Positions 1,535 through 19,079 of a stretch of DNA of 21,306 bases are shown here, one piece after another. The notes beneath the pieces are model-generated. The model made no database searches. It saw nothing but the letters and a program-made list of their open reading frames with translations, and was not told the origin of the DNA. The translations under genes were made by a program, and so were the position numbers. Source of the DNA: a virus; IMG/VR virus record IMGVR_UViG_3300036814_001729, positions 1 to 21,306 of that record; one strand, given 5' to 3'. Positions within the stretch are counted from its first letter, which is position 1. Each line of letters begins with the position of its first letter.

Positions 1535-3262
1535 ATGTCATATAACGGTGAAAATTCAGTTGATTACACTAACAGTAATCCAGACTATTGGGCTAGCGTT
1601 AATTCATATTTCGAAAGCCATGGTGAAAACGATGTTGGAGAAACCGGCATATGGATTCCTAATTTAGAAAAACAAGGGGCGGAGTCTATTGCATTAGCAG
1701 CCTCTGCCGGTGGCGTTACGGCGGTTGGTGGAAGTAATTATGCTGGCGGTAGCAAGTCAGCAGATACTAGAACTTACGCCGATACTGGAGAGACCGAATC
1801 CTCTAGGGCTGAATATAGCATAACCAGGCCTATAACTCTAGCCTCTATATACAGGGGTGGTACAGATTACGAAACAACCTCTGCATCAGATCACTATGGT
1901 GGTGGTACGTCTCTGGGAGGAATGGGGAAACTTCCCCCTTCTTGGCAGGGGGTTTCGATAAGCGGCGGGAATGTTGTTGGGACTCCTGGGGCTAATTACT
2001 CGGCTGCTGGCGGAGATTACGCTGGTTTATTGTCAGCTGGTACCGCAGTGACGGCTGAATTACTCGATAATTTACTAGGGCCAAGAGATGGCGACGGCCT
2101 GAGGGTTAGAGGCACGTTTCCAACTCCCACCGGTTCAGCCATTACTGGCGCTGGAACCACCGTTGGAGCTGGCACCGACACGGACTTGGCAAGTTATCTT
2201 AATTTTGAAGGACACCACGCTGAATATGATGGTTCTCAGGCTCATTCCATAGATTATACTAATCAGAACCCAGCTTACTGGACAAATGTTATCAATTGGC
2301 ACGCTGCTAATGGTACTAATGCAATGGGAGAAACCGGTATATGGATACCTAACTTTGAAAAACAGGGGGCAGAGGCTATTGGTATAGCTGCACATCTTGG
2401 CGGAGTTAGAAAGGTACAGGGAAACAATTACCACCAAGCTGGTGGCACAGAATTAGCTCTCGAGTTGGCTTCTATCCATAGGGGCGGAACCGATATTGAT
2501 ACTGGCAGAGGAATGGGTAAGTTATCTGGAGACAAGTATGGAGCTAAACTACTAGGCGGATCTGTAGTTGGCGGACCCGGAACTGCTTACTCGGCTGCGG
2601 GCGGAGACTTCCCAGGTTTAAGTATAGCAGGATCTCCTGGGTCTTATGTATCAACCGGTATTGGAACCGGTGTCGGAGCTGGACCAGCTAAGGATTGGTC
2701 AGCTTATATGCCTTCAAACTTTGCTCAAGCTGAGAACGGTGGATTGCTTTATCAGCCTTGGGCGACGAATTACCCGGCTTCCGGGGTCATACCAGGGGTA
2801 GCTTCAGGAAGCGGCATGTTAGGAACCGGGGGGTCTGCTGCTGCTAGTGGCACGCCAGCCGTTACAAGAACCGCTTCTGGTACCTTTCCGGCTGCTACTG
2901 TAATTACTCCGACAACGGGTGCTACGGGAACAGTCTCCCCGGTTTCTGAAGGGGGGCATGACCCAACGGGTGGTGACATAGCTCACTCAGTTTCAACAAT
3001 GTCGTCAATGATGTCACACGGTTTGACAGCGCCGGCTCATCTGGGGGCGGTCGTTGGTGCTATGTTTAGTCCAATGACGTCAACAGCTGGAACTACTATA
3101 GCTCCCGATACCTATTCTGCAACGGCCTTGGCAACAGCGTTGAAAGGCATGGAACCAGATCCGGCAGAGGCGTCAACTAGTGCTGGTGCGTCATCAGGCT
3201 CATCTTCTGGTTCAGCAGGCAGTGACCCAGAAAGCGATTCCGAACATGGCGGATCAGGATAA
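1535..3262 (+). CDS. Large Gly/Ala/Ser-rich repeat protein, probable virion or fibre-like
   Basis: This 575-residue protein is dominated by Gly, Ala, Ser and Thr and has very few Lys, Arg or Cys. It has a diverged internal tandem duplication: residues about 8-228 and 238-397 share the block DYTN.NP.YW, the block GETGIWIPN.EKQGAE, LASI.RGGTD, GMGKL, YSAAGGD and a VGAG end. After the second copy comes a low-complexity region (VTRTASGTFPAATVITPTTG and a final Ser/Gly/Asp/Glu stretch SGSSSGSAGSDPESDSEHGG). There is no signal peptide or enzyme motif. Its place between a GNAT-like gene and virion genes suggests an extended structural, fibre or surface-display protein. I do not recognise the family. 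The spacer of 28 bases to the next gene holds AGGGG as ribosome-binding site. Confidence 0.7.
   Translation: MSYNGENSVDYTNSNPDYWASVNSYFESHGENDVGETGIWIPNLEKQGAESIALAASAGGVTAVGGSNYAGGSKSADTRTYADTGETESSRAEYSITRPITLASIYRGGTDYETTSASDHYGGGTSLGGMGKLPPSWQGVSISGGNVVGTPGANYSAAGGDYAGLLSAGTAVTAELLDNLLGPRDGDGLRVRGTFPTPTGSAITGAGTTVGAGTDTDLASYLNFEGHHAEYDGSQAHSIDYTNQNPAYWTNVINWHAANGTNAMGETGIWIPNFEKQGAEAIGIAAHLGGVRKVQGNNYHQAGGTELALELASIHRGGTDIDTGRGMGKLSGDKYGAKLLGGSVVGGPGTAYSAAGGDFPGLSIAGSPGSYVSTGIGTGVGAGPAKDWSAYMPSNFAQAENGGLLYQPWATNYPASGVIPGVASGSGMLGTGGSAAASGTPAVTRTASGTFPAATVITPTTGATGTVSPVSEGGHDPTGGDIAHSVSTMSSMMSHGLTAPAHLGAVVGAMFSPMTSTAGTTIAPDTYSATALATALKGMEPDPAEASTSAGASSGSSSGSAGSDPESDSEHGGSG
1556..2720 (+). 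repeat. Diverged tandem duplication inside the 575-residue gene
   Basis: Copy A spans about 1556-2212 and copy B about 2246-2720. Both encode the same ordered blocks (DYTN.NP.YW; GETGIWIPN.EKQGAE; GGV...GNY-type turn; LASI.RGGTD; GMGKL; GG.VVG.PG..YSAAGGD; VGAG...D..(A/S)Y). Copy A is longer by about 60 residues, from an insert after the Gly-rich turn and another near the LLGPRDGDGL segment. The DNA copies differ widely at third positions, so the duplication is old rather than recent. Confidence 0.8.
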
Positions 3263-10219: not shown

Positions 10220-10434
10220 TAGAAGTATCATGGTTGGATTCTTATACTGAAGCTGGATGGGCAGAGCATGAGCCGGAAAAGGTTTTATCCAAAACCTACG
10301 GACTATTGATAGAAAAGAATTCTGACTGGGTCTCTCTAGCAATGACCAAAGAAGAAGGTTACTGGGGCAATCTATGGTACATCCCCACAAAGAACGTTGA
10401 AAACATTCGGGTTATAGAAACATTAAAAATTTAA
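10132..10434 (+). CDS. Hypothetical small late protein, last gene of the plus operon
   Basis: The frame is open from ATG 10132 (100 residues), but the protein-like part starts around KLVEVSWLDSYTEAGWAEHE, in line with a family of small phage proteins of the form 'VEV.WvDs....GW' then 'vGf...K..d...la......gyw.. .IP...I..i..L'. A start at 10132 overlaps the lipoprotein gene by 88 bases; a GTG at 10174 overlaps by 46. The GGAGAAGAGAAAG at 10195-10207 could serve initiation nearby, but no ATG follows in frame. The C-terminal half is SLAMTKEEGYWGNLWYIPTK, predicted beta-rich. No function is assigned. Its stop overlaps the stop of the convergent minus-strand gene. Confidence 0.6.
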   Translation: MDANLSYINTNDSGVDSPGPTGEEKETKLVEVSWLDSYTEAGWAEHEPEKVLSKTYGLLIEKNSDWVSLAMTKEEGYWGNLWYIPTKNVENIRVIETLKI

Positions 10435-10946
10435 TTGCTTTGTATTTTCTGTAATAGTCTCAGCTCAAGCAGCTCCTGTATAGGAACAACCTTAGCAACA
10501 ATAACATTATCGCTTTTGTTGTTTATCTTTTCTGGATACTTTTCTTTGTTTTCTTCAAACCACTTCTTTAGCATCGTGAAGTTAGCTCTATAAATTTCTT
10601 TGGTTTTCAAGAAGGTATAGAGTAACACATCAGCTTTGCATGTATACATCCATCCCGACCGATCTCTTTTCTTGTCTGCCCACAAAACCAAGAACAAGTT
10701 GTTGTGTTTATTTTCTACTTCCGTCTTCAGCTCTATAACCTCCATTTGTTTGTTTGGCAGCTGAACAAAGATATCACCGTATTTTTGCAACTCTCTGCTT
10801 GTATCCTTGTTGAACTTGGCTTCTCCTATAGAGGGAAGTACAATATACCGCCCTCCAACAGAGATCTGTTTTATATAGGGCATCACTAATCTTCTGCCCG
10901 CCTCCTCCACAGATAAGTTCCTCTTGATTTCTTTCGTAATACTCAT
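10431..10946 (-). CDS. PD-(D/E)XK nuclease-like phage protein
   Basis: This 171-residue protein has a probable restriction-type nuclease core: D58 in KYGDIFVQL, then E72-x-K74 in MEVIELKTE, that is D-(13)-E-x-K. After this come LFLVLWADKKRDRSGWMYTC and KADVLLYTFL, matching a small phage family with 'LF.E.Ws....r.GW......D.L.Y.fl'. It has no HNH or GIY-YIG motif. It is the last gene of the minus-strand metabolic operon and overlaps nrdJ by four bases (ATGA), so the two are translated together. It could be a structure-specific nuclease or a resolvase-like enzyme in DNA metabolism; the substrate is unknown. The nuclease call is by motif and context and has not been checked by profile comparison. 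Confidence 0.6.
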   Translation of the reverse strand: MSITKEIKRNLSVEEAGRRLVMPYIKQISVGGRYIVLPSIGEAKFNKDTSRELQKYGDIFVQLPNKQMEVIELKTEVENKHNNLFLVLWADKKRDRSGWMYTCKADVLLYTFLKTKEIYRANFTMLKKWFEENKEKYPEKINNKSDNVIVAKVVPIQELLELRLLQKIQSN

Positions 10947-12829
10947 ATTTCACAAACTCCTGCAAAACAAGCTAACTCTTGGCTTGCTATCGTGTTGTCT
11001 TCGCTTTCTTCAACATCGTCCCATGATATATCTTTGCTTTTGGGGAAGCTCTTCCATTCATCGAAGGTAATTTCTGTAAACGGCGCTGATTCATAGATGT
11101 GTTGATCCTCGCTTTTAGGCAGAAAGCTTATCCCACTAAGTATATCGAAGTTAGTATAACACCACGCTCCGACCTCCATCCACTCTTCTTCGCCAACATA
11201 GATGGTACAGCTGGGTTTGTGTTCGCACCAATTCAACGCAAACTTTTTCCACACCTCCAGATGCTGGATAGCGGTAATAGATTCTTTAGTACGCGATCCT
11301 TTGGGAGAGCTCATTGGAAACATAAAAACAACGGCTTCATTGTTGTAGGGATCTACTTCATAAGGAATGTTAGCAGCCATGATGACTTCGTTTAGCGGGT
11401 CTTTCTTGTCTTGCCTAACTCGCCTGATGTAATACTTAGAAAAAGATGGGTGCAACCCAGAACCTGCTACGCCAGTCAGTTGACTAACGGTTCCGGAAGG
11501 TTTAACACAGGTAACAGCAGCTGACTGGTTAATTTGAAATAACTTAGCCCACTTCTTATTCTCTGTTACAGCTAATTGTTTCCAGTCTTGCAGCTTTTCT
11601 CCTGTAGCATCTACTAGGATGGGGCAATCAAACACTCCTGTGAAACTAACACCCAGCAACCTCTCTTCTTCTGCGTTGTTTCTCCATACAGCTCTAACGT
11701 AACGGAAATTTGTTAAGGCTGATTGCACAGTACCTAGAAAGGTTGCAATAATGATCTTTTCTTTTATGCTCTCTTCGGTATCTTCTGGTCGGATAACACA
11801 CTCGGTGAGATTGCAAACACCAGCCGATCTTAAAACTATTTCAGAACATGGGTTGCAACCAAACTCGTGATCCTTGTCTCTCCTCTCTGGCAGAAGATTC
11901 AAACAGGCCTTTCTATTGAAGATCCCTCTTTCTCCGCTCTTTGATTCATACAGGGCTGTCCACTCCCTCAAGAATATACCCATCTCGGGTTTTTCTGTGT
12001 AACAAACAGAGTTATTAGCTAACGCTCGCTGTCCATGATCTACCCACCACTGACCAGACTTGGCATATCTCATGCGTTCATCTGTTAAATTGCTTAAGCT
12101 TATCTCAGCCGCCCTTCTAACACCCCCGACTACGACGCTTTCTCCGTTCCAGCACATTAAATCATGACACTCTAAGCTATTGAGCTTTCTTCCTTGTGCT
12201 GCTTTAAAGGTTGAGATATAATAGGAAAACAATCTTTCCAAAGGTTCCGGACCAGAGGCTCGACCACCAAACATTTTTAATTTTGCACCTGCCGGACGTA
12301 CACGAGAATAATCTATACGAGGAATCATTCCTTGATAGAGTAAACTAACAAGTTCTCTTAAAGATTTTGCCCAACCAATCTTGCTATCGCTTACTATTAC
12401 CGTGGTTTCGCTTTCGTGAAACTCTTCAGCAATTTCGGGTAATTTATTTATATACTGTCGTTCAACACTGAAGCCAACGCCTGTTCCGCACAATAGCACG
12501 TACAGGTTTTCATCAAACACCCTGGGGTGATCAACAGCGATATAAGCGCAGTTGTATCCAGCCATGTTATCTCTCTCTAGGGCTGGACCAGCTGTCATCA
12601 TCGCTCTCATGGAAGGCATAACATCCATTTTTAATATTGCTAGCCTAGCCTTGTCCCACATTTTTTGATACTTGTGTTCTGCCCCATCGGACGAAAGTTC
12701 GAATAACTTAGAATACCTCATAAAGGTACAATATCTCTCAACAGTCTCTTCCCATGTCTCCCTTCTACCTTTGTTGTCTAGGTAACGAGCGTAACGACTT
12801 TTGTGTATAAACTTTTGATATTCATTCAT
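10943..12829 (-). CDS. nrdJ: Adenosylcobalamin-dependent (class II) ribonucleotide reductase, monomeric type
   Basis: This 628-residue enzyme reduces ribonucleotides to deoxyribonucleotides using a thiyl radical made with adenosylcobalamin, so it needs no oxygen and no second subunit. All key residues are visible: C94 (YNCAYIAVD) pairs with C339 (AGVCNL) as the redox disulfide; N326, C328 and E330 in CNPCSEI form the radical site. The 11-residue spacing C328-C339 equals that of the Lactobacillus leichmannii enzyme. C621 and C626 at the end (ACFAGVCEI) are the thioredoxin-reactive pair. KPSGT (443-447) is a substrate-phosphate loop. It is shorter than the 739-residue Lactobacillus protein. The leader before it can form a pseudoknot. 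The gene implies that the host makes or imports vitamin B12, as proposed for cobaviruses. Confidence 0.95.
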   Translation of the reverse strand: MNEYQKFIHKSRYARYLDNKGRRETWEETVERYCTFMRYSKLFELSSDGAEHKYQKMWDKARLAILKMDVMPSMRAMMTAGPALERDNMAGYNCAYIAVDHPRVFDENLYVLLCGTGVGFSVERQYINKLPEIAEEFHESETTVIVSDSKIGWAKSLRELVSLLYQGMIPRIDYSRVRPAGAKLKMFGGRASGPEPLERLFSYYISTFKAAQGRKLNSLECHDLMCWNGESVVVGGVRRAAEISLSNLTDERMRYAKSGQWWVDHGQRALANNSVCYTEKPEMGIFLREWTALYESKSGERGIFNRKACLNLLPERRDKDHEFGCNPCSEIVLRSAGVCNLTECVIRPEDTEESIKEKIIIATFLGTVQSALTNFRYVRAVWRNNAEEERLLGVSFTGVFDCPILVDATGEKLQDWKQLAVTENKKWAKLFQINQSAAVTCVKPSGTVSQLTGVAGSGLHPSFSKYYIRRVRQDKKDPLNEVIMAANIPYEVDPYNNEAVVFMFPMSSPKGSRTKESITAIQHLEVWKKFALNWCEHKPSCTIYVGEEEWMEVGAWCYTNFDILSGISFLPKSEDQHIYESAPFTEITFDEWKSFPKSKDISWDDVEESEDNTIASQELACFAGVCEI

Positions 12830-12853
12830 AAAGAATCATTCCCTTTTGATAGC

Positions 12854-12901
12854 GCCCCGTTCGCAGAGGGAGGGACCTAAGACACGGGGCCACATCTTAG
12901 G
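12854..12901 (-). promoter_or_regulatory. H-type pseudoknot in the nrdJ leader
   Basis: In the 80-base gap before nrdJ the minus-strand RNA has two interleaved perfect 7-bp stems. Stem 1 pairs CCUAAGA (12901-12895) with UCUUAGG (12882-12876). Stem 2 pairs GCCCCGU (12890-12884) with ACGGGGC (12860-12854). Loop 1 is UGUG, the junction is one base, and the last loop is 15 bases, pyrimidine-rich (UCCCUCCCUCUGCGA). This is the topology of small pseudoknot riboswitches such as SAM-II. It ends about 24 bases before the nrdJ start and just ahead of the AAGGGA ribosome-binding site. It is not the long B12-box cobalamin riboswitch. A regulatory role is inference; the pairing is directly visible. Confidence 0.6.
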
Positions 12902-12909
12902 CACTATAA

Positions 12910-13146
12910 TTAAAACGGTATGTCGCTTTTCTTTTCTTTTGTGTAACTGCCACCACCGCTATTGAACGGCTCGGAGATAGTTAACGACAGGTATTCTTTG
13001 CCGCTTTTCGATTTAGTTTTCCAAGCCGCTAATTGAATTTCCTCGCCTCTCCACTTACCGTTTCCGGTCATCAAAGGATGCTTATCACTGTCTCGTTTTT
13101 CATTAGGGAACAGAGAACCCTTTCCTTCTCTTAGCTCGTAAGCCAT
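12910..13146 (-). CDS. Small protein with SSB-like acidic/IPF tail
   Basis: This 78-residue protein has a good ribosome-binding site (AGGAG) 8 bases before the start. The N-terminus MAYELREGKGSLFPNEKRDS and the core GKWRGEEIQLAAWKTKSKSG followed by KEYLSLTISEPF resemble the small DUF736-like family of phages and plasmids, predicted to form an OB-like beta sheet ('G.....i..W.k.sk.G..YlSl.i.'). After a Gly/Ser linker it ends KKSDIPF, close to the DDDIPF tip through which bacterial SSB recruits partners. It lies between the exonuclease and nrdJ in the replication operon. A role in single-stranded DNA binding or as an SSB-tip mimic is inference from the core and the tail. Confidence 0.65.
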   Translation of the reverse strand: MAYELREGKGSLFPNEKRDSDKHPLMTGNGKWRGEEIQLAAWKTKSKSGKEYLSLTISEPFNSGGGSYTKEKKSDIPF

Positions 13147-13156
13147 TGAACATCTC

Positions 13157-14035
13157 CTATAAATTTACCATCGTTGGACAAAATTCTGCAACATTGCAAT
13201 AAGATTCACACCTTCTATAAGACCCAGGCCTGAATTGCAAAGATATTCCCTCCTTGTCAAATAAAGATTCTATGTATTCCTCTGCTTCCTCTTCAGTATC
13301 ACAAAGCTTTACAGCCTTTACTCTACCCTTTCTCATTATGGCGTGCTTAGAGCCAGAGTACCATCTTTCCTCATCACTGCAAACAACTGGCATATCTCCT
13401 TCTTCGTTATTCCTGTGTAAAGCAAGTCTATCCTCTATATACTTATCCTGCTCTTCGTTAGTCCACCTCTTTATAGGAAGAACCTGTATTGGGTGGCTTG
13501 GATAATTTCTTTCTCCCGCCCTTCCTCTCGCCCAGTCTCTACAGATACCAAGAATATATAATTTTTTTACCTCATGTCCGTGATGTCGCATTATCGAACA
13601 GTTAACATTCAACTGCTTTTCGAACTTGGAATAATCCTGTCTAACGATCGCCCAAACAGATAAGTTTTTTATGTCCCATAAGATTTTGCTCTCTATCTCT
13701 AAACAATCGATCTGGCAAGATACGTTAACTTGCTCGCCTCCTGAATTGTAAGGAGATACGAATCTTTTCTCAACCAAAACATCTGAAGAATTAACATTCG
13801 CTTGCTCGAAAATATTATGAACAGCTGTCCCATACACGCTCCAGAGCATTTCACTAGCCTCTTCTACAATAGCTCCCTTGTTGGCTAGGGTCAAGTGATT
13901 CTTCATTGGCCCATCTATAAGGGTTGTGCAGCTAATGTCAAACTTAACTCCGTCTTTATTGTAGTTGCTATAAGTCAACCCTCTAACAACCCACTCTGGC
14001 AATTCTAACTGGTTAGTAAAATTTCTACTACTCAC
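13157..14035 (-). CDS. RecB/Cas4-type PD-(D/E)XK exonuclease with Cys cluster
   Basis: This 292-residue protein has the whole RecB-family nuclease order: H73 in YGTAVHNIFEQ, D110 in SCQIDCLEI, D121-x-K123 in LWDIKN, and Q141 in FEKQLNV. The N-terminal ISCTTLIDGP corresponds to the 'S.T.Li..P' motif of phage exonucleases, with C36 at the place of the first Cas4 cysteine. The end has C276, C280 and C286 (C-x3-C-x5-C in RRCESYCNVAEFC), which with C36 could hold a 4Fe-4S cluster as in Cas4/AddB. It probably trims DNA ends for recombination or degrades host DNA. It overlaps the small gene upstream by eight bases. The call is firm for the fold; the cluster is inferred from cysteine positions. Confidence 0.85.
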   Translation of the reverse strand: MSSRNFTNQLELPEWVVRGLTYSNYNKDGVKFDISCTTLIDGPMKNHLTLANKGAIVEEASEMLWSVYGTAVHNIFEQANVNSSDVLVEKRFVSPYNSGGEQVNVSCQIDCLEIESKILWDIKNLSVWAIVRQDYSKFEKQLNVNCSIMRHHGHEVKKLYILGICRDWARGRAGERNYPSHPIQVLPIKRWTNEEQDKYIEDRLALHRNNEEGDMPVVCSDEERWYSGSKHAIMRKGRVKAVKLCDTEEEAEEYIESLFDKEGISLQFRPGSYRRCESYCNVAEFCPTMVNL

Positions 14036-14303
14036 TTTCGCTTCTCCCTTTCAAGTTATAAACATTCTTTAGTATGTAATCTTTATCGTAACCAAACTCT
14101 GCTGCTCTCGTTTCGATAACGCAATCAATTATTTCTAAAAACTTTTCTGATAAGTCAGCCTTAACATCAACGGGTTCCGGCGTTTGTGGTAAGGATAGCA
14201 AGTACATCATACATTTGCATGCATATTCTGCAGCATCTCTTCTGCAGTCCATATCAATAGCAAACAACATATTCTCGAAATCAGTCTTTGAGTCTTGGTC
14301 CAC
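14028..14303 (-). CDS. Hypothetical helical protein with GTG start
   Basis: This 91-residue protein starts with GTG at 14301-14303, preceded by the strong site GAGGGAG seven bases upstream; the first ATG-type alternative (residue 12) has no such site. The protein is acidic, helical and Cys-containing (DMDCRRDAAEYACKCMMYLL), with a middle PQTPEPVDVKADLSEKFLEI and a C-terminal EFGYDKDYILKNVYNLKG. It overlaps the upstream nuclease-like gene by 23 bases and the downstream exonuclease by eight. I do not recognise it. The tight coupling between two nuclease genes suggests a small accessory factor in recombination or replication, but nothing in the sequence proves it. Confidence 0.7.
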   Translation of the reverse strand: MDQDSKTDFENMLFAIDMDCRRDAAEYACKCMMYLLSLPQTPEPVDVKADLSEKFLEIIDCVIETRAAEFGYDKDYILKNVYNLKGRSESE

Positions 14304-14625
14304 TCTGCTCTCCCTCTATAAGATGAATCTTTGCTTCCCACCTGTTCTTGCTATTTTTCCACCATCCCCAGACTTCGATTGTCCACCCCGCTTCTAAAAC
14401 GGTTTTCAAGTTATCGGAATCTGTTATCTTCTTTATTCGACTAGACATGTTCCCCTTGGTAGTGGCTTGGATGCCGAGGGTAGATCCCTGCTTAACCCCA
14501 ACTATATCGATGAACCCAAACAGATCTTTCCTTGTTCTACTGTGAGGATTCCACTTCTCGACAACCTCCGCTATAAAACCTTCTTTCCTTAACTTGTCCA
14601 AGCTTCTAACCGTTGGTGAACTCAT
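14281..14625 (-). CDS. VRR-NUC / resolvase-like nuclease-fold protein
   Basis: This 114-residue protein has the outline of a small PD-(D/E)XK fold: RSLDKLRKEGFIAEVVEKWN, then RKDLFGFIDIVGVKQG with the conserved D40, then LGIQATTKGNMSSRIKKI. In this phage family the strand after the Asp reads 'l.IQ.T' with Q53 where many nucleases have E or Q and T55 where Lys is expected. The usual catalytic Lys is thus not in its standard place, so it may work with a migrated residue (K57) or be a binding-only form. The C-terminal half has Trp-rich beta strands (WTIEVWGWWKNSKNRWEAKI). Candidate roles are Holliday-junction or branch resolution. It lies directly behind the helicase gene. Confidence 0.65.
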   Translation of the reverse strand: MSSPTVRSLDKLRKEGFIAEVVEKWNPHSRTRKDLFGFIDIVGVKQGSTLGIQATTKGNMSSRIKKITDSDNLKTVLEAGWTIEVWGWWKNSKNRWEAKIHLIEGEQSGPRLKD

Positions 14626-14627
14626 AA

Positions 14628-15560
14628 TTAATAAACCGTTTGCGGAGCATCGAATGGGTTGTTTAAAAATTGCATAGAAGCTTTGTTAAAAGACAGCTGC
14701 CACTTAGACTGGCCAGTATGCCTGGACTTGTCAACAACCAGCACACAGTCGGGCTCGTCGGTAAGATCTGTTCCGCCAAGCATCATCTCTTCTTCCTTGT
14801 GCTTGTTTCTCCATAGAATACAAGCCGTATCTGCTAAGTCTGTTAGCTGACCAGCTCCTCTGATATCGTGAAGAGATAGTTTACCCCTGTCTGATTGCAT
14901 CTTTCTAGAATGCATCGCTATATGGAAAGTAATTCCCGTATCTCTCGATGTTACAGCTAGCTTATCCATTAAGTCTGCTTCCATCATCCAACGATTATCG
15001 GGATTTCCGTCGAGCTTAAGTTTCAACCACCCATCTATAAATACATGCTTCACTCCCAACTCGTGCATCGCAAAACGAGATACTCCTATTATTTCATCTC
15101 CCTTTACTTGGTTTTCTTTGGTGTAGAGAAATCCTTTCCCTTCTAAAACTTCCATCGCTTTGTTTATGTTTTCTTGGGATGGATTCTCCTCTCCCGTTGC
15201 TTGTCTCAACATCCTGCCTACATTGACATGAGGTCTAAGCTCCGGTCCCCAGTATAGAAACTTTTCTTCCTTGTCTGAATATTTTCCTGTAGTAGAAAAC
15301 ACTGCTATCTGTGATAGCAAACAAGATTTTCCACTGCCTGTTGTGCCAGCATAGATATTGATTGTTCCATCTGTTATTCTATACTCGTCTTCGGAAGAAC
15401 CGAACGGAAGGCGTCCACCTTTCCCATCAGCCCTGTCTGTTAACCACAGAGAAGCCTCTTCTTTATACTCTCTAAGTTCGTGAACGTTGGATGTCTCATT
15501 TGGATCTAGATAAGCTTTCCAATCGATGTCTGTTAAAGAGAGTCTGTCTACCTCTTCCAT
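14628..15560 (-). CDS. DnaB-like replicative helicase, helicase domain only
   Basis: This 310-residue protein has the RecA-type core of superfamily-4 helicases. Walker A is GTTGSGKS (72-79), Walker B is HVFIDGW (172-178), the sensor/H3 part is TFHIAMHSRK (211-220), and the DnaB-type motif DIRGAGQLTDLADTACILW (232-250) is nearly complete. KSRHTGQ (278-284) has the basic finger residue R280. There is no N-terminal primase zinc or TOPRIM domain, so unlike T7 gp4 or Twinkle it is helicase only; priming would come from another gene or the host. The enzyme should form a hexamer that unwinds DNA at the fork. It follows dut with contiguous stop and start (TAGATG) and a GGAGG site. Confidence 0.88.
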   Translation of the reverse strand: MEEVDRLSLTDIDWKAYLDPNETSNVHELREYKEEASLWLTDRADGKGGRLPFGSSEDEYRITDGTINIYAGTTGSGKSCLLSQIAVFSTTGKYSDKEEKFLYWGPELRPHVNVGRMLRQATGEENPSQENINKAMEVLEGKGFLYTKENQVKGDEIIGVSRFAMHELGVKHVFIDGWLKLKLDGNPDNRWMMEADLMDKLAVTSRDTGITFHIAMHSRKMQSDRGKLSLHDIRGAGQLTDLADTACILWRNKHKEEEMMLGGTDLTDEPDCVLVVDKSRHTGQSKWQLSFNKASMQFLNNPFDAPQTVY

Positions 15561-16037
15561 CTACTTTGTTCCTCCGTACTTCCAGTCGCATTTCTCTTCA
15601 GAGGTAGAACCGAATCCGCCTACTCCTCGAGCGCTTGCTTTACGGAACAGGTCTGCTTCGTCTTTTTCTATTATCCTTATCGTAGGAACGGGCAGCAACA
15701 ATCCCTGCATTATCTTCATACCCGGAAAGATCTTTGTTATGCTTTCTCCGAGATTAATAACGTGAAGATGTATTTCACCTTGATACCCCTCATCTATAAC
15801 ACACGCTCCAACAACGAGCTGCTCCTTGGTTGCAATACCGCTTTTATTAAACTGGACAATAGCATAACCAGAAGGGATTTCCATCTTTACTCCGGATGGG
15901 ATTAATACATCTTCTCCGAAATACAAGTCAATCTCTTCAAAATCGTAAGGTACGAAAAAGTCGATACCTGCGTCTGTATCATGTCCCTTCTCTGGAGACT
16001 TCACTCTCCTAGTTTTACAGAAATTAAGTAATTGCAT
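15561..16037 (-). CDS. dut: Trimeric dUTP diphosphatase
   Basis: This 158-residue protein has all five motifs of trimeric dUTPases in order: I, DAGIDFFVP (22-30); II, FNKSGIATK (63-71, family RSGLA); III, GACVIDEGYQGEI (77-89), with the catalytic Asp D82 and the uracil-stacking Tyr Y85; IV, TKIFPGMKIMQG (101-112, family RIAQL.. slightly changed); V, ARGVGGFGST (136-145), the Gly-rich P-loop-like tail closing the site. It hydrolyses dUTP to dUMP and PPi, lowering uracil in DNA and feeding the thymidylate-synthase-type enzyme encoded two genes upstream. Length is typical. It overlaps the kinase-UDG gene by 14 bases and has AAAGGGAG as ribosome-binding site. Confidence 0.95.
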   Translation of the reverse strand: MQLLNFCKTRRVKSPEKGHDTDAGIDFFVPYDFEEIDLYFGEDVLIPSGVKMEIPSGYAIVQFNKSGIATKEQLVVGACVIDEGYQGEIHLHVINLGESITKIFPGMKIMQGLLLPVPTIRIIEKDEADLFRKASARGVGGFGSTSEEKCDWKYGGTK

Positions 16038-16917
16038 CTGTAGCTCCCTTTAGTGCCGACACAAAAGAATAAGAACTATTATAATTAAACCTCTTCCAAA
16101 ATTGGGGATGTGGAAAAATCTCATCTGGTACTACACCAACACCTTTCAAATACTTTTCAGCTTCTCTGCCCAACGCAAAGATTTTAGAGGGCTCTAGAAG
16201 ATCCATATAACATGGGTCTATCTTGTTGCCATCATGGGTGAAAGAATTGGCCCAGTAAAGTTTATCTTCTGGGATGTTAGCTTCGTCCATTAAACCAGAT
16301 AACCAAATAGAACTTCCGTTCTTTGCCGCAAAAGGAATTTCGCACTGCTCTATAAGGTTACACCTGTCGGCAACTATAAGTACGTTTCCTTGTTGAAAGT
16401 GACCAGAACCGGGCCCTAAATCTTCGGATGGAGAACAGTATTCTAACTGAGAAAACAATTCTACCGTCGAGTCTCTAGTCCAGTCGTAATAGACAACGGG
16501 CAAATGAGTTATAAGCTTTTGGTAGGCATAATATCCAGTTGTCCATTCTGCCAGATCTTTGATTACTTCGTATTCCCGATTTGCTTCCCAACTCTTTCTT
16601 GCAGCCTCTATCCCTGGGTCACAGAGGATGACCACACCCCTCTTTGAAAGACAAGCTCTATCAAACGCTCGATGCCTTAACCATTTCTCTGTGAAGCCCC
16701 GTAGAATTGGACCGTAAACCTGCTCCGAGAGGTGGGACAAGCGATCATAGATCATATTATCTGATCCGCTTTTAACCATCTTAATTTCTTCATAGAATCC
16801 AAACTTTCTACCGGAGTGCGAGTATCCGACCCCGTCTCTGAAAGTAAACATCCTGGATAGCTGCGCAGATAGGTAACTTTTACCTGTACCATCCATCCCT
16901 TCGATTATAAAACTCAT
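16024..16917 (-). CDS. Fusion of dNMP (thymidylate) kinase-like and UDG-fold domains
   Basis: Residues 1-150 look like a thymidylate/deoxynucleoside-monophosphate kinase: MSFIIEGMDGTGKS (P-loop 6-14), the DR motif YDRLSHLSEQVYGP (57-70) and a RGVVILCD strand. Residues about 168-285 match a uracil-DNA-glycosylase fold of phage type: GHFQQGNVLIVADRCN, then IPFAAKNGSSIWLSGLM, KLYWANSFTHDG, LEPSKIFALGREAEKYL and PHPQFWKRFNYN. The 'HPQ(Y/F)WKRF' end and 'P.k..ALG..A...L' are typical of this phage family. The first motif is VADRCN rather than the GE.PG of active glycosylases. The two activities in one chain suggest handling of a modified pyrimidine nucleotide or base. It lies between the thymidylate-synthase-like gene and dut, overlapping both. 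Confidence 0.75.
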   Translation of the reverse strand: MSFIIEGMDGTGKSYLSAQLSRMFTFRDGVGYSHSGRKFGFYEEIKMVKSGSDNMIYDRLSHLSEQVYGPILRGFTEKWLRHRAFDRACLSKRGVVILCDPGIEAARKSWEANREYEVIKDLAEWTTGYYAYQKLITHLPVVYYDWTRDSTVELFSQLEYCSPSEDLGPGSGHFQQGNVLIVADRCNLIEQCEIPFAAKNGSSIWLSGLMDEANIPEDKLYWANSFTHDGNKIDPCYMDLLEPSKIFALGREAEKYLKGVGVVPDEIFPHPQFWKRFNYNSSYSFVSALKGATDAIT

Positions 16918-17633
16918 AGTATGAGTGCCTCTCTGTTTAAATATTCTTCAATTTTCTGCACATCTCTGGTAAAGACATGGGCTGAATCGATATGATGAGT
17001 GTAATCTCCAACAACACAATCTAACTCTTTAGCTATATATTCCTGAAGTCTGCACATATTGTAAACGTCATACCCCATAACTGACCACACGTTTTGACTT
17101 CTCATGTGGGTGATCGCATGCAACCGACCTCTTCTGATAAAGTAATGAGCTCCGATAGTGCAAGGATATTCCATCGATGTTTTAGAACCCAGTATTATAT
17201 TATCTTCCTTCAGTAGAATACTTAAGTAAGCTCTTCGTGAGTCAGGATTGCGTCTCAGCTCATCTATTATCACCGGTAGCTGCTCCTTAACCTTCCACCC
17301 GTAAGAAGAACTAAAGTTTTCTGGCAGTCCGGTACCATCAACAAAGATCTTTGCGTATGGTTGCAGCTTGTTAATCTTCTCAGACAGGTCAGTATCGCCC
17401 GACATAATCCAATCAAAGAAAAGCTCGCAATGCTCTACGTTCAGCCTCTTAGATGTGAAGGCTATCTTATCCTCGTCCTCCGTCTCCCAAGGACAAAGCC
17501 TAAAACCAACACTAATATTTTCATGCGTTTTCTTCGGCTTAGACTCGGGATAGAGAACTAACTGATTCAGCAACCACCTTTCTGCTGTGTCGTAACGATC
17601 TGCTAATTTAAAATTTTCTAAAAATAGAGACAT
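16914..17633 (-). CDS. Thymidylate-synthase-family enzyme, possible pyrimidine hydroxymethylase
   Basis: This 239-residue protein has the family signatures: ELFFDWIMSGDTDL (70-83, with E70 matching the catalytic Glu), the phosphate-binding PDSRRAYLSI (R133, R134), the nucleophile C158 in EYPCTIG, HMRSQNVW (176-183), YDVYNMCRLQEYIAKEL (188-204) and THHIDSAHVF (212-221). D189 stands where thymidylate synthases have the Asn that reads uracil (E. coli N177). In T4 dCMP hydroxymethylase this position is Asp. F221 replaces the Tyr that contacts the sugar. So the enzyme may hydroxymethylate dCMP or another pyrimidine instead of making dTMP. It is short for ThyA (264). It overlaps the methyltransferase gene by 26 bases. 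Substrate is inference from a by-eye alignment. Confidence 0.8.
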   Translation of the reverse strand: MSLFLENFKLADRYDTAERWLLNQLVLYPESKPKKTHENISVGFRLCPWETEDEDKIAFTSKRLNVEHCELFFDWIMSGDTDLSEKINKLQPYAKIFVDGTGLPENFSSSYGWKVKEQLPVIIDELRRNPDSRRAYLSILLKEDNIILGSKTSMEYPCTIGAHYFIRRGRLHAITHMRSQNVWSVMGYDVYNMCRLQEYIAKELDCVVGDYTHHIDSAHVFTRDVQKIEEYLNREALIL

Positions 17634-18474
17634 GATGATACTTTCCCTGGTAGTTGAACGCTTGGAACTCGAACCCGGCTCGAGATGTCCAAGAATTAAA
17701 ACTGCTTATAGCTTCTTTAACGTCGTCAATCTGCATAGCAGCACCCGATTCAGTTAAATCATTCAGCCTGAGATCTAGGAAGGGATCTCTACTTTCAACC
17801 ACCAATAAACACCCTCCCTTTTTTAACAACATGCTGCTAACATCTAGTATTGCATTGCGTTCGTATTCTCCTTTCAGATGCAGCACCTCTGACAGGAGAA
17901 CGACATCGTGTTCTTTGCAGCTCTCCAGGCTTTTTCTGACAGTAGACGGGTCCCAAAGCAAGTCGAGCTCTACTACAAATCTCCTCTCTTTAGGGATTTC
18001 GATACCCGGCCACTTGATATTGATAACTCCCGGCCTGTCTATCATGGTTACTGTAGAGTCGACGAACGTTTCTAAGAAAGATTTAGCATATTCTCCGTCT
18101 CCACAACACACATCCGCCAAAGAACTTCCGTTACCAAAAGACTCCAAACCATTGCCATCTAAACAGTTAACAACATCTTGCCAAAAACTAGCTCTCTCGT
18201 AATGGAAGGTTTCGGTGAGACCTCTTAATAAAAGATCGTAATTATCTCTCCCCCCTTTCGATCCAGAAGAGAAGTTCTCGTTGTAGGTGAACATGCTGTA
18301 AAGCTTGCGTAGCTCTTCTATATTATCTAGCGCGCCGAACTCTTCCAAACAAGCACAAATCTTTTTGAATTTTTTAGCGTGTCTGATAGAGTGCTTATAA
18401 ATGAAATACTCGTGTATCAGATGGGTTAGGTATGGAGCATTTAATAACGTTGATGTACTCATTGAATGTGACAT
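17608..18474 (-). CDS. Class I SAM-dependent methyltransferase, O-methyltransferase-like
   Basis: This 288-residue protein has a helical N-terminal part (1-115) with LTHLIHEYFIYKHSIRHAKK, and a Rossmann methyltransferase domain after it. Motif I is SLADVCCGDGEYAKSFLETF (118-137), the acidic residue of motif II is D146 in VTMIDRPGVI, and motif IV is HDVVLLSEVLHLKGEY (189-204), followed by the LLKKGGCLLVVE strand. A 'DxPxVI'-type second motif and the order helical part plus Rossmann domain resemble the O-methyltransferase group (Methyltransf_2-like). It lacks DPPY/NPPY and PC motifs, so it is not an ordinary adenine or cytosine DNA methylase. As first gene of the nucleotide-modification block it may methylate a hydroxylated base or nucleotide; this is inference. 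GAGGA lies 12 bases before the chosen ATG. Confidence 0.72.
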   Translation of the reverse strand: MSHSMSTSTLLNAPYLTHLIHEYFIYKHSIRHAKKFKKICACLEEFGALDNIEELRKLYSMFTYNENFSSGSKGGRDNYDLLLRGLTETFHYERASFWQDVVNCLDGNGLESFGNGSSLADVCCGDGEYAKSFLETFVDSTVTMIDRPGVINIKWPGIEIPKERRFVVELDLLWDPSTVRKSLESCKEHDVVLLSEVLHLKGEYERNAILDVSSMLLKKGGCLLVVESRDPFLDLRLNDLTESGAAMQIDDVKEAISSFNSWTSRAGFEFQAFNYQGKYHHVSIFRKF

Positions 18475-18481
18475 TTTTAGG

Positions 18482-18817
18482 TTATTCCTCTATTGCCATG
18501 TCTCTAAGAAAGGTTGTGTTTAATCTGTCTTCTTCCCAGTTTAATATTCTTGTGGCGCCGGCTTTATCCAGAGACCAAACCAAGTCTTTTGTCCATCGAT
18601 TAGGCGCGAACCCGCTCTTCACTAGTATGACGTCCTGTTTCTGCGCCCATGCATAATTGAACTTAATTGGATTACCCTCTATCCACACGGTAAGCTTGCT
18701 ATGCGGCATTCTAGCGTAGGTTTCTTCGGCAGCGTGGCCATAGCAGCAGAATATTGTTCTGCTTTGGGGAGATCCGCCGCCATACCAGAACTTTTCCTTA
18801 GTCCTGTTGTGGCTCAT
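18482..18817 (-). CDS. Hypothetical protein of the early operon
   Basis: The frame is open from 18925, but the start at 18817 (MSHNRTKEKFWYGGG) has a good GAGGGG site nine bases upstream and removes most of the overlap with the previous gene, leaving 20 bases. The resulting 111-residue protein has a Gly-rich turn GGGSPQSRTIFCCYG, then AAEETYARMPHSKLTVWIEG, NYAWAQKQDVILVKSGF and RWTKDLVWSLDKAGATRILN. The alternating strands and helices suggest a small alpha/beta fold. I do not recognise a family. It ends seven bases before the methyltransferase start, so it is part of the same transcript. Confidence 0.6.
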   Translation of the reverse strand: MSHNRTKEKFWYGGGSPQSRTIFCCYGHAAEETYARMPHSKLTVWIEGNPIKFNYAWAQKQDVILVKSGFAPNRWTKDLVWSLDKAGATRILNWEEDRLNTTFLRDMAIEE

Positions 18818-19079
18818 TTCCGCCAACCCCTCTGGAAACCTCATCCGCGTACTGTTCGAGAGTTTGTCCATATCTTTCTTTAAACCACTGATTCCATGTT
18901 TTGGACTTATTGGGAACGAGTTCATTCCTCTTCAGCCAGATCGATTTGGCCCCTGTTCTCTTGATTCGTTCTTGAATTTTTTCCGATGATTCTTTCATTG
19001 GGTGATTTCTGTATGGCCATGGATTTATCGAAGAGACAGTTTTCAGCGGGAGCTGTGGGTCGAACTCTCCACCCTCCAT
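18798..19079 (-). CDS. Hypothetical small protein, start uncertain
   Basis: The frame gives 93 residues from 19079, or 66 from the ATG at 18998 (MKESSEKIQERIKRTGAKSI). The C-terminal part, KTWNQWFKERYGQTLEQYAD then EVSRGVGG, looks like a real folded segment. The first 27 residues overlap the sensible part of the longer gene beginning at 19566, so the later start is more likely. Even then 77 bases would overlap that gene in another frame. No ribosome-binding site is clear before either start. The stop overlaps the next gene's start by 20 bases. Function unknown. Confidence 0.5.
   Translation of the reverse strand: MEGGEFDPQLPLKTVSSINPWPYRNHPMKESSEKIQERIKRTGAKSIWLKRNELVPNKSKTWNQWFKERYGQTLEQYADEVSRGVGGNEPQQD

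Follow-up and report, generated by a model that had tools for sequence, protein, structure and literature searches.

Among phages, the operator of gene 32 is the best-documented parallel, by analogy, to the element described here. In T4 and RB69, the SSB gp32 begins to assemble at a pseudoknot and comes to cover the ribosome site (PMC535899, PMC3014915), and this operator, known from T4, T2 and RB69, is lineage-restricted, its knot being absent from RB49 (PMC535899, PMC3014915). The gene 32 knot is of the H type, lies upstream of the ribosome site in the mRNA leader of the SSB gene and measures about 28 nt, with UUAAA repeats after it. Small H-type pseudoknots are also known as aptamers located before a Shine–Dalgarno (SD) sequence, as in preQ1-I, which has an A-rich loop 3 (PMC11625349), and in SAM-II. 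In preQ1-III, which is larger and has the HLout fold, an anti-SD/SD helix forms a second pseudoknot (PMC11625349). The HDV-like ribozymes, including the minimal (theta) phage ribozymes, fold as a nested double pseudoknot (PMC10879173).

The window, that is, the whole stretch of DNA analysed, is a 21.3-kb virus record in which genes running rightward occupy the left side and meet a DNA-metabolism operon of leftward orientation, coding for thymidylate synthase, a kinase, dUTPase, a DnaB-like helicase, an exonuclease, an SSB-like protein and NrdJ. Throughout the operon genes, as listed from 10431 to 18925, neighbours overlap or lie within about 10 nt, with the sole exception of 80 nt that run from the SSB-like stop (12910) to the nrdJ start (12829), and it is this only sizeable gap that the pseudoknot occupies. 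The nrdJ gene (10943..12829, minus strand) encodes a monomeric-type adenosylcobalamin-dependent RNR of 628 aa, related to TIGR02505 RTPR and PDB 1l1l. An in-frame stop is found 9 nt upstream of its ATG; as in-frame stops shortly precede the nrdJ ATG both here and in the one related phage described below, the leader lies outside the nrdJ coding sequence. The rightward genes include an A-type iron–sulphur carrier (IscA/HesB-like, PF01521; 8776-9078, plus strand) and a 575-aa protein (1535-3262, plus strand) that carries an internal duplication, GENDVGETGIWIPNLEKQGAE / GTNAMGETGIWIPNFEKQGAE, and has no Pfam family match.

The first-pass annotation had proposed a perfect H-type pseudoknot in the leader of this B12-dependent reductase gene, with two 7-bp stems and loops of 4, 1 and 15 nt, and direct reading of the sequence bore this out exactly, with 14/14 Watson–Crick pairs and the knot ending 24 nt upstream of the nrdJ start. 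The core of 48 nt runs on the minus strand from its RNA 5' end at 12901 to its 3' end at 12854. It comprises the 5' strand of stem 1 (CCUAAGA, 12895..12901), loop 1 (UGUG, 4 nt, 12891..12894), the 5' strand of stem 2 (GCCCCGU, 12884..12890), a single G as loop 2 between both stems (12883..12883), the 3' strand of stem 1 (UCUUAGG, 12876..12882), the 15-nt loop 3 (UCCCUCCCUCUGCGA, 12861..12875) and the 3' strand of stem 2 (ACGGGGC, 12854..12860), so that the two stems interleave; stem 1 could be extended by one G.U pair (12902/12875). The SD sequence of nrdJ (AAAAGGGA, 12840..12847, minus strand) begins 6 nt 3' of the knot, and the complete 80-nt gap followed by the start codon reads, on the minus strand 5'->3', UUAUAGUG-CCUAAGA-UGUG-GCCCCGU-G-UCUUAGG-UCCCUCCCUCUGCGA-ACGGGGC-GCUAUC-AAAAGGGA-AUGAUUCUUU-AUG.

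An exhaustive scan of both strands of the window, with loop limits of 1-8 (L1), 0-3 (L2) and 3-25 nt (L3), found exactly one 7+7 pseudoknot, whereas 200 dinucleotide shuffles gave 22 in total, or 0.11 per window. Four distinct 7+7 structures were present in 1.1 Mb of other loci, and the sole one at a phage nrdJ locus was inside coding sequence. From the shuffle and other-locus rates, the chance of a 7+7 knot landing in this 80-nt gap is estimated to be of the order of 1e-4. The knot core has a calculated energy of about -21 kcal/mol (stacking energies summed, the standard 9.6 kcal/mol penalty for a pseudoknot added and loop terms omitted), compared to -15.8 kcal/mol when the core takes its best nested fold. 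The nested-only prediction retains stem 2 and excludes stem 1, and its z-score is unremarkable (-1.0) because a nested fold cannot hold both stems.

To date one relative has been found, IMGVR_UViG_3300022693_001205, an independent contig that is 81% identical over 9 kb. The longest identical run in this 9-kb alignment is the element itself, 53/53 nt (12852..12904, minus strand), which covers the knot and two or three flanking bases on each side and defines the extent of the element. Elsewhere in the alignment, identity is 33/46 (72%) in the other gaps (Fisher p = 1.6e-5 against 53/53) and 60% at third codon positions. Divergence, including an indel, begins just 3' of the knot, 3 nt beyond the end of stem 2, and the SD sequence is conserved again despite the differing linker. 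All loop positions are as invariant between both phages as the stems. Judged from this pairwise comparison, the pattern shows strong purifying selection on stems and loops alike. No covariation signal exists, because nothing varies between the two phages at any of the 53 positions; the two-stem fold is a strong prediction from sequence, set beside a conservation that is read directly from the alignment. What weakens the knot reading most is that it rests on two genomes; what strengthens it most is that structure, invariance and position coincide exactly.

NrdJ searches of IMG/VR yielded 69 nrdJ loci, of which those whose nrdJ start lay inside the fetched DNA were compared. The same leader was present in only one of these nrdJ loci, contig 3300022693_001205, and was absent from 60/60 of the others, none of which had a perfect knot with stems of at least 7+6 bp just before nrdJ; phages with 50-75% identical NrdJ had no leader of any kind. 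Therefore, this is not a general nrdJ leader. No other equivalent 7+7 knot was found in the 69 nrdJ loci plus 80 loci with SSB-like genes, where weaker 5+5 matches look like chance. DNA pattern scans of IMG/VR with pairing checked, run with the exact core, with either stem left free in turn and with loop 3 as the only fixed part, returned only the one relative, a helicase-guided search for intermediate relatives led to the same contig only, and collections of genomes, phages and plasmids gave chance matches and no further copy. In Rfam, whose models hold one stem of a pseudoknot only, the whole window had no match at the gathering threshold, and a permissive scan of the region (E = 10) gave only a chance plus-strand snoRNA match (E 8.9). 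In the literature searched, no paper was found that describes this element or RNA-level control of a phage nrdJ. On this distribution, the element is a lineage-restricted addition to a known kind of regulator, known in two phages.

When the locus is compared with the described systems, it shares with the gene 32 operator its place in a phage mRNA leader, an H-type pseudoknot upstream of the ribosome site, a DNA-replication context and a restriction to one lineage. In contrast, the knot is longer here, it follows an SSB-like gene and precedes nrdJ, and no UUAAA or UAAA repeats lie between knot and start, where linker plus ribosome-binding site read GCUAUCAAAAGGGAAUGAUUCUUU. Because of the gene order and the lack of these repeats, the element is not a member of the gene 32 operator family. 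It has the topology and the pre-SD position of preQ1-I and SAM-II, but its loop 3 is C/U-rich, no queuosine or SAM gene lies downstream, and covariance models of preQ1-I/II/III, SAM-II, SAM-V, guanidine-III, fluoride and cobalamin riboswitches gave no match. The anti-SD proposed below would recall that of preQ1-III, in which a pseudoknot loop pairs with the downstream SD, although the gating is only predicted here. Like the cobalamin riboswitch, the knot precedes a B12-dependent RNR gene; however, the earlier statement that it is not that riboswitch holds, as it is far too short and matches neither the cobalamin family nor any other in Rfam. In HDV-like ribozymes, P3/L3 sits between the P2 5' and P1 3' strands. 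The minimal theta ribozymes resemble the element in being pseudoknotted phage RNAs, and a C-containing GCGAA before the 3' strand of stem 2 is reminiscent of J4/2; nevertheless, a single G separates the corresponding strands, which leaves no room for P3, and no tRNA is found near the knot, so an HDV-like ribozyme was rejected. Stop-codon readthrough, suggested by an 8-nt spacing like that of MuLV, was discarded because a second in-frame stop follows at once, as was a -1 frameshift, for which no slippery heptamer is present at UUUUAA.

The gene that precedes the leader (12910..13146, minus strand) ends 8 nt before stem 1 and encodes a 78-aa protein, related to DUF736, with DIPF at its C-terminus. 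It is tentatively assigned as SSB-like from weak family matches: DUF736 of Pfam falls just below the cut-off, two PHROGs families of single strand DNA binding proteins are matched, and the homologue in Phage C72C1 is annotated as SSB. The C-terminal Pro-Phe is invariant in 24 aligned relatives. Structure prediction gave four strands with modest confidence, and a fold search had no clear match. Proteins related to DUF736 whose C-terminus ends in an SSB-like (D/E)(I/L/V)PF tip are common in virus contigs, with over 500 loci matched, and look like a small divergent family of SSBs. In the SSB-like gene of the window, the last nine codons and the stop (12906-12939, minus strand) are identical at every base to those of the relative, and joined to the knot they form an 88-nt block with one mismatch; raised synonymous conservation in these nine codons was considered and rejected, since the 34-nt run is not significant and several coding runs are longer. 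In another nrdJ phage (L027, 778-4538), the translations reveal an exonuclease-like gene, a canonical SSB, small genes and nrdJ in this order and without the leader. Because a similar gene order is kept there, the SSB–nrdJ neighbourhood is probably ancient, and the leader was probably added locally.

Competition for strands between an RNA structure and the ribosome site is the usual basis of translational control. Once the two stems are masked, AGGGA of the nrdJ SD is predicted in both phages to pair with UCCCU, the five bases at the start of loop 3 (12871-12875), which suggests, as a model, that loop 3 (UCCCUCCCU) could gate the ribosome site; among random 15-mers drawn from the window, 6% contain a 5-nt match to this SD region. 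The nested ensemble computed without constraints gives the SD another partner, CCU in the 5' strand of stem 1. Either model thus has the knot and the ribosome site sharing strands or competing for them.

Considering these data, the pseudoknot is read as acting in cis as a translational operator of nrdJ, alone or together with a protein, and with a metabolite ligand counted apart; we give this reading a probability of roughly 50%, and the knot probably controls how much NrdJ enzyme gets made. In favour of this reading are the scarcity of such knots in the window, the coincidence with the longest invariant run, the closeness to the nrdJ ribosome site and the fact that a compact phage has kept the leader, as the knot fills the only gap of the operon over about 10 nt. 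Against it stand the existence of two sequences only, identical in the element, the chance rate of the loop 3/SD match, and the phages with similar NrdJ that manage without a leader. As a mechanism, within the polycistronic DNA-metabolism transcript, in the SSB–nrdJ intercistronic gap, the stacking of the two stems would give a compact knot with the C-rich loop 3 held in it. In a loose knot, or one that no partner holds, UCCCU of loop 3 would pair with AGGGA and the ribosome would be blocked, whereas with loop 3 docked along stem 1 or bound by the partner the site would be free, or the sign could be the reverse. The partner would more likely be a protein made during infection than a small metabolite, and the first candidate, by analogy with gene 32 of T4, would be the upstream SSB-like protein. 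Binding by a repressor would be one possibility, and has on its side the better precedent and this candidate; however, the T4 knot stands in front of the gene of its own SSB, and the knot described here comes after the SSB-like gene. Only tentatively can a more specific proposal be put forward, that of a new class of compact phage pseudoknots that would sense a DNA-precursor signal, be it dNTP, AdoCbl or the SSB of the phage itself, and set class II RNR output through a loop-3 anti-SD switch.

The knot could also be, as one option of the first-pass annotation has it, the aptamer of a metabolite riboswitch for a nucleotide, dNTP or cobalamin-related ligand, which would expose or hide the nrdJ SD. 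The H-type topology, the invariance of every loop position, as a binding pocket would need, and the position ahead of a gene for a metabolic enzyme whose operon also encodes thymidylate synthase, a kinase and dUTPase are consistent with it. Yet the region matches no Rfam riboswitch even at E = 10, and the element occurs in two phages, with no cellular or other phage copy in the collections searched, whereas known riboswitch classes are usually far more widespread. A ligand-sensing riboswitch, with topology and invariance as the limits of its support, is possible but unlikely.

Rather unlikely, in our estimation, is a stability or processing element, which would set dosage without a switch, either by blocking 3'-exonucleases and protecting the upstream message (SSB and earlier genes) or by defining the 5' end of a processed nrdJ mRNA. 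The location of the knot just after the SSB-like stop in a long polycistronic operon fits this role, and RNase E processes the T4 gene 32 mRNA at -71, beside its pseudoknot (PMC3014915). However, a mechanical barrier would not require every loop base to be invariant, nor would it have to lie close to the nrdJ SD.

As sequence conservation cannot separate DNA from RNA function, the two interleaved inverted repeats (spacers of 12 and 23 bp) could instead be a protein-binding or recombination site in DNA, with half-sites roughly two and three helical turns apart. This was considered improbable: the spacers are as invariant as the repeats, the site lies within an operon rather than at a divergent promoter, searches for a terminator or a sigma-70 promoter signal found none, and interleaved perfect repeats, unusual for an operator, are exact for a pseudoknot.

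Chance pairing within a region conserved for another reason is compatible with two genomes free of covariation and with shuffled window sequence yielding a random 7+7 knot roughly every 0.2 Mb, but it is very hard to reconcile with a knot that sits in the only real gap and overlaps the longest invariant run exactly. Least credible of all is a translated leader, in which a small frame (12895-12836, minus strand; MWPRVLGPSLCERGAIKRE) read by reinitiation after SSB would melt the knot and couple nrdJ to SSB translation: the frame stays open in each phage and stops near the nrdJ ribosome site, but its ATG has no SD, its C-terminus is not conserved, and all its third positions are invariant, against 57-63% identity for same-residue codons elsewhere, and therefore point to selection on RNA. 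The product of this frame, which overlaps the knot, is 19 aa long here (MWPRVLGPSLCERGAIKRE) and 16 aa in the relative (MWPRVLGPSLCERGAN).

RNR controls the dNTP supply and is among the commonest metabolic genes of phages. The element is small enough for the translational operator to be tested in one reporter experiment. If the reading is true, this would be a second, independent pseudoknot operator in phage DNA metabolism, which would suggest a recurring strategy.
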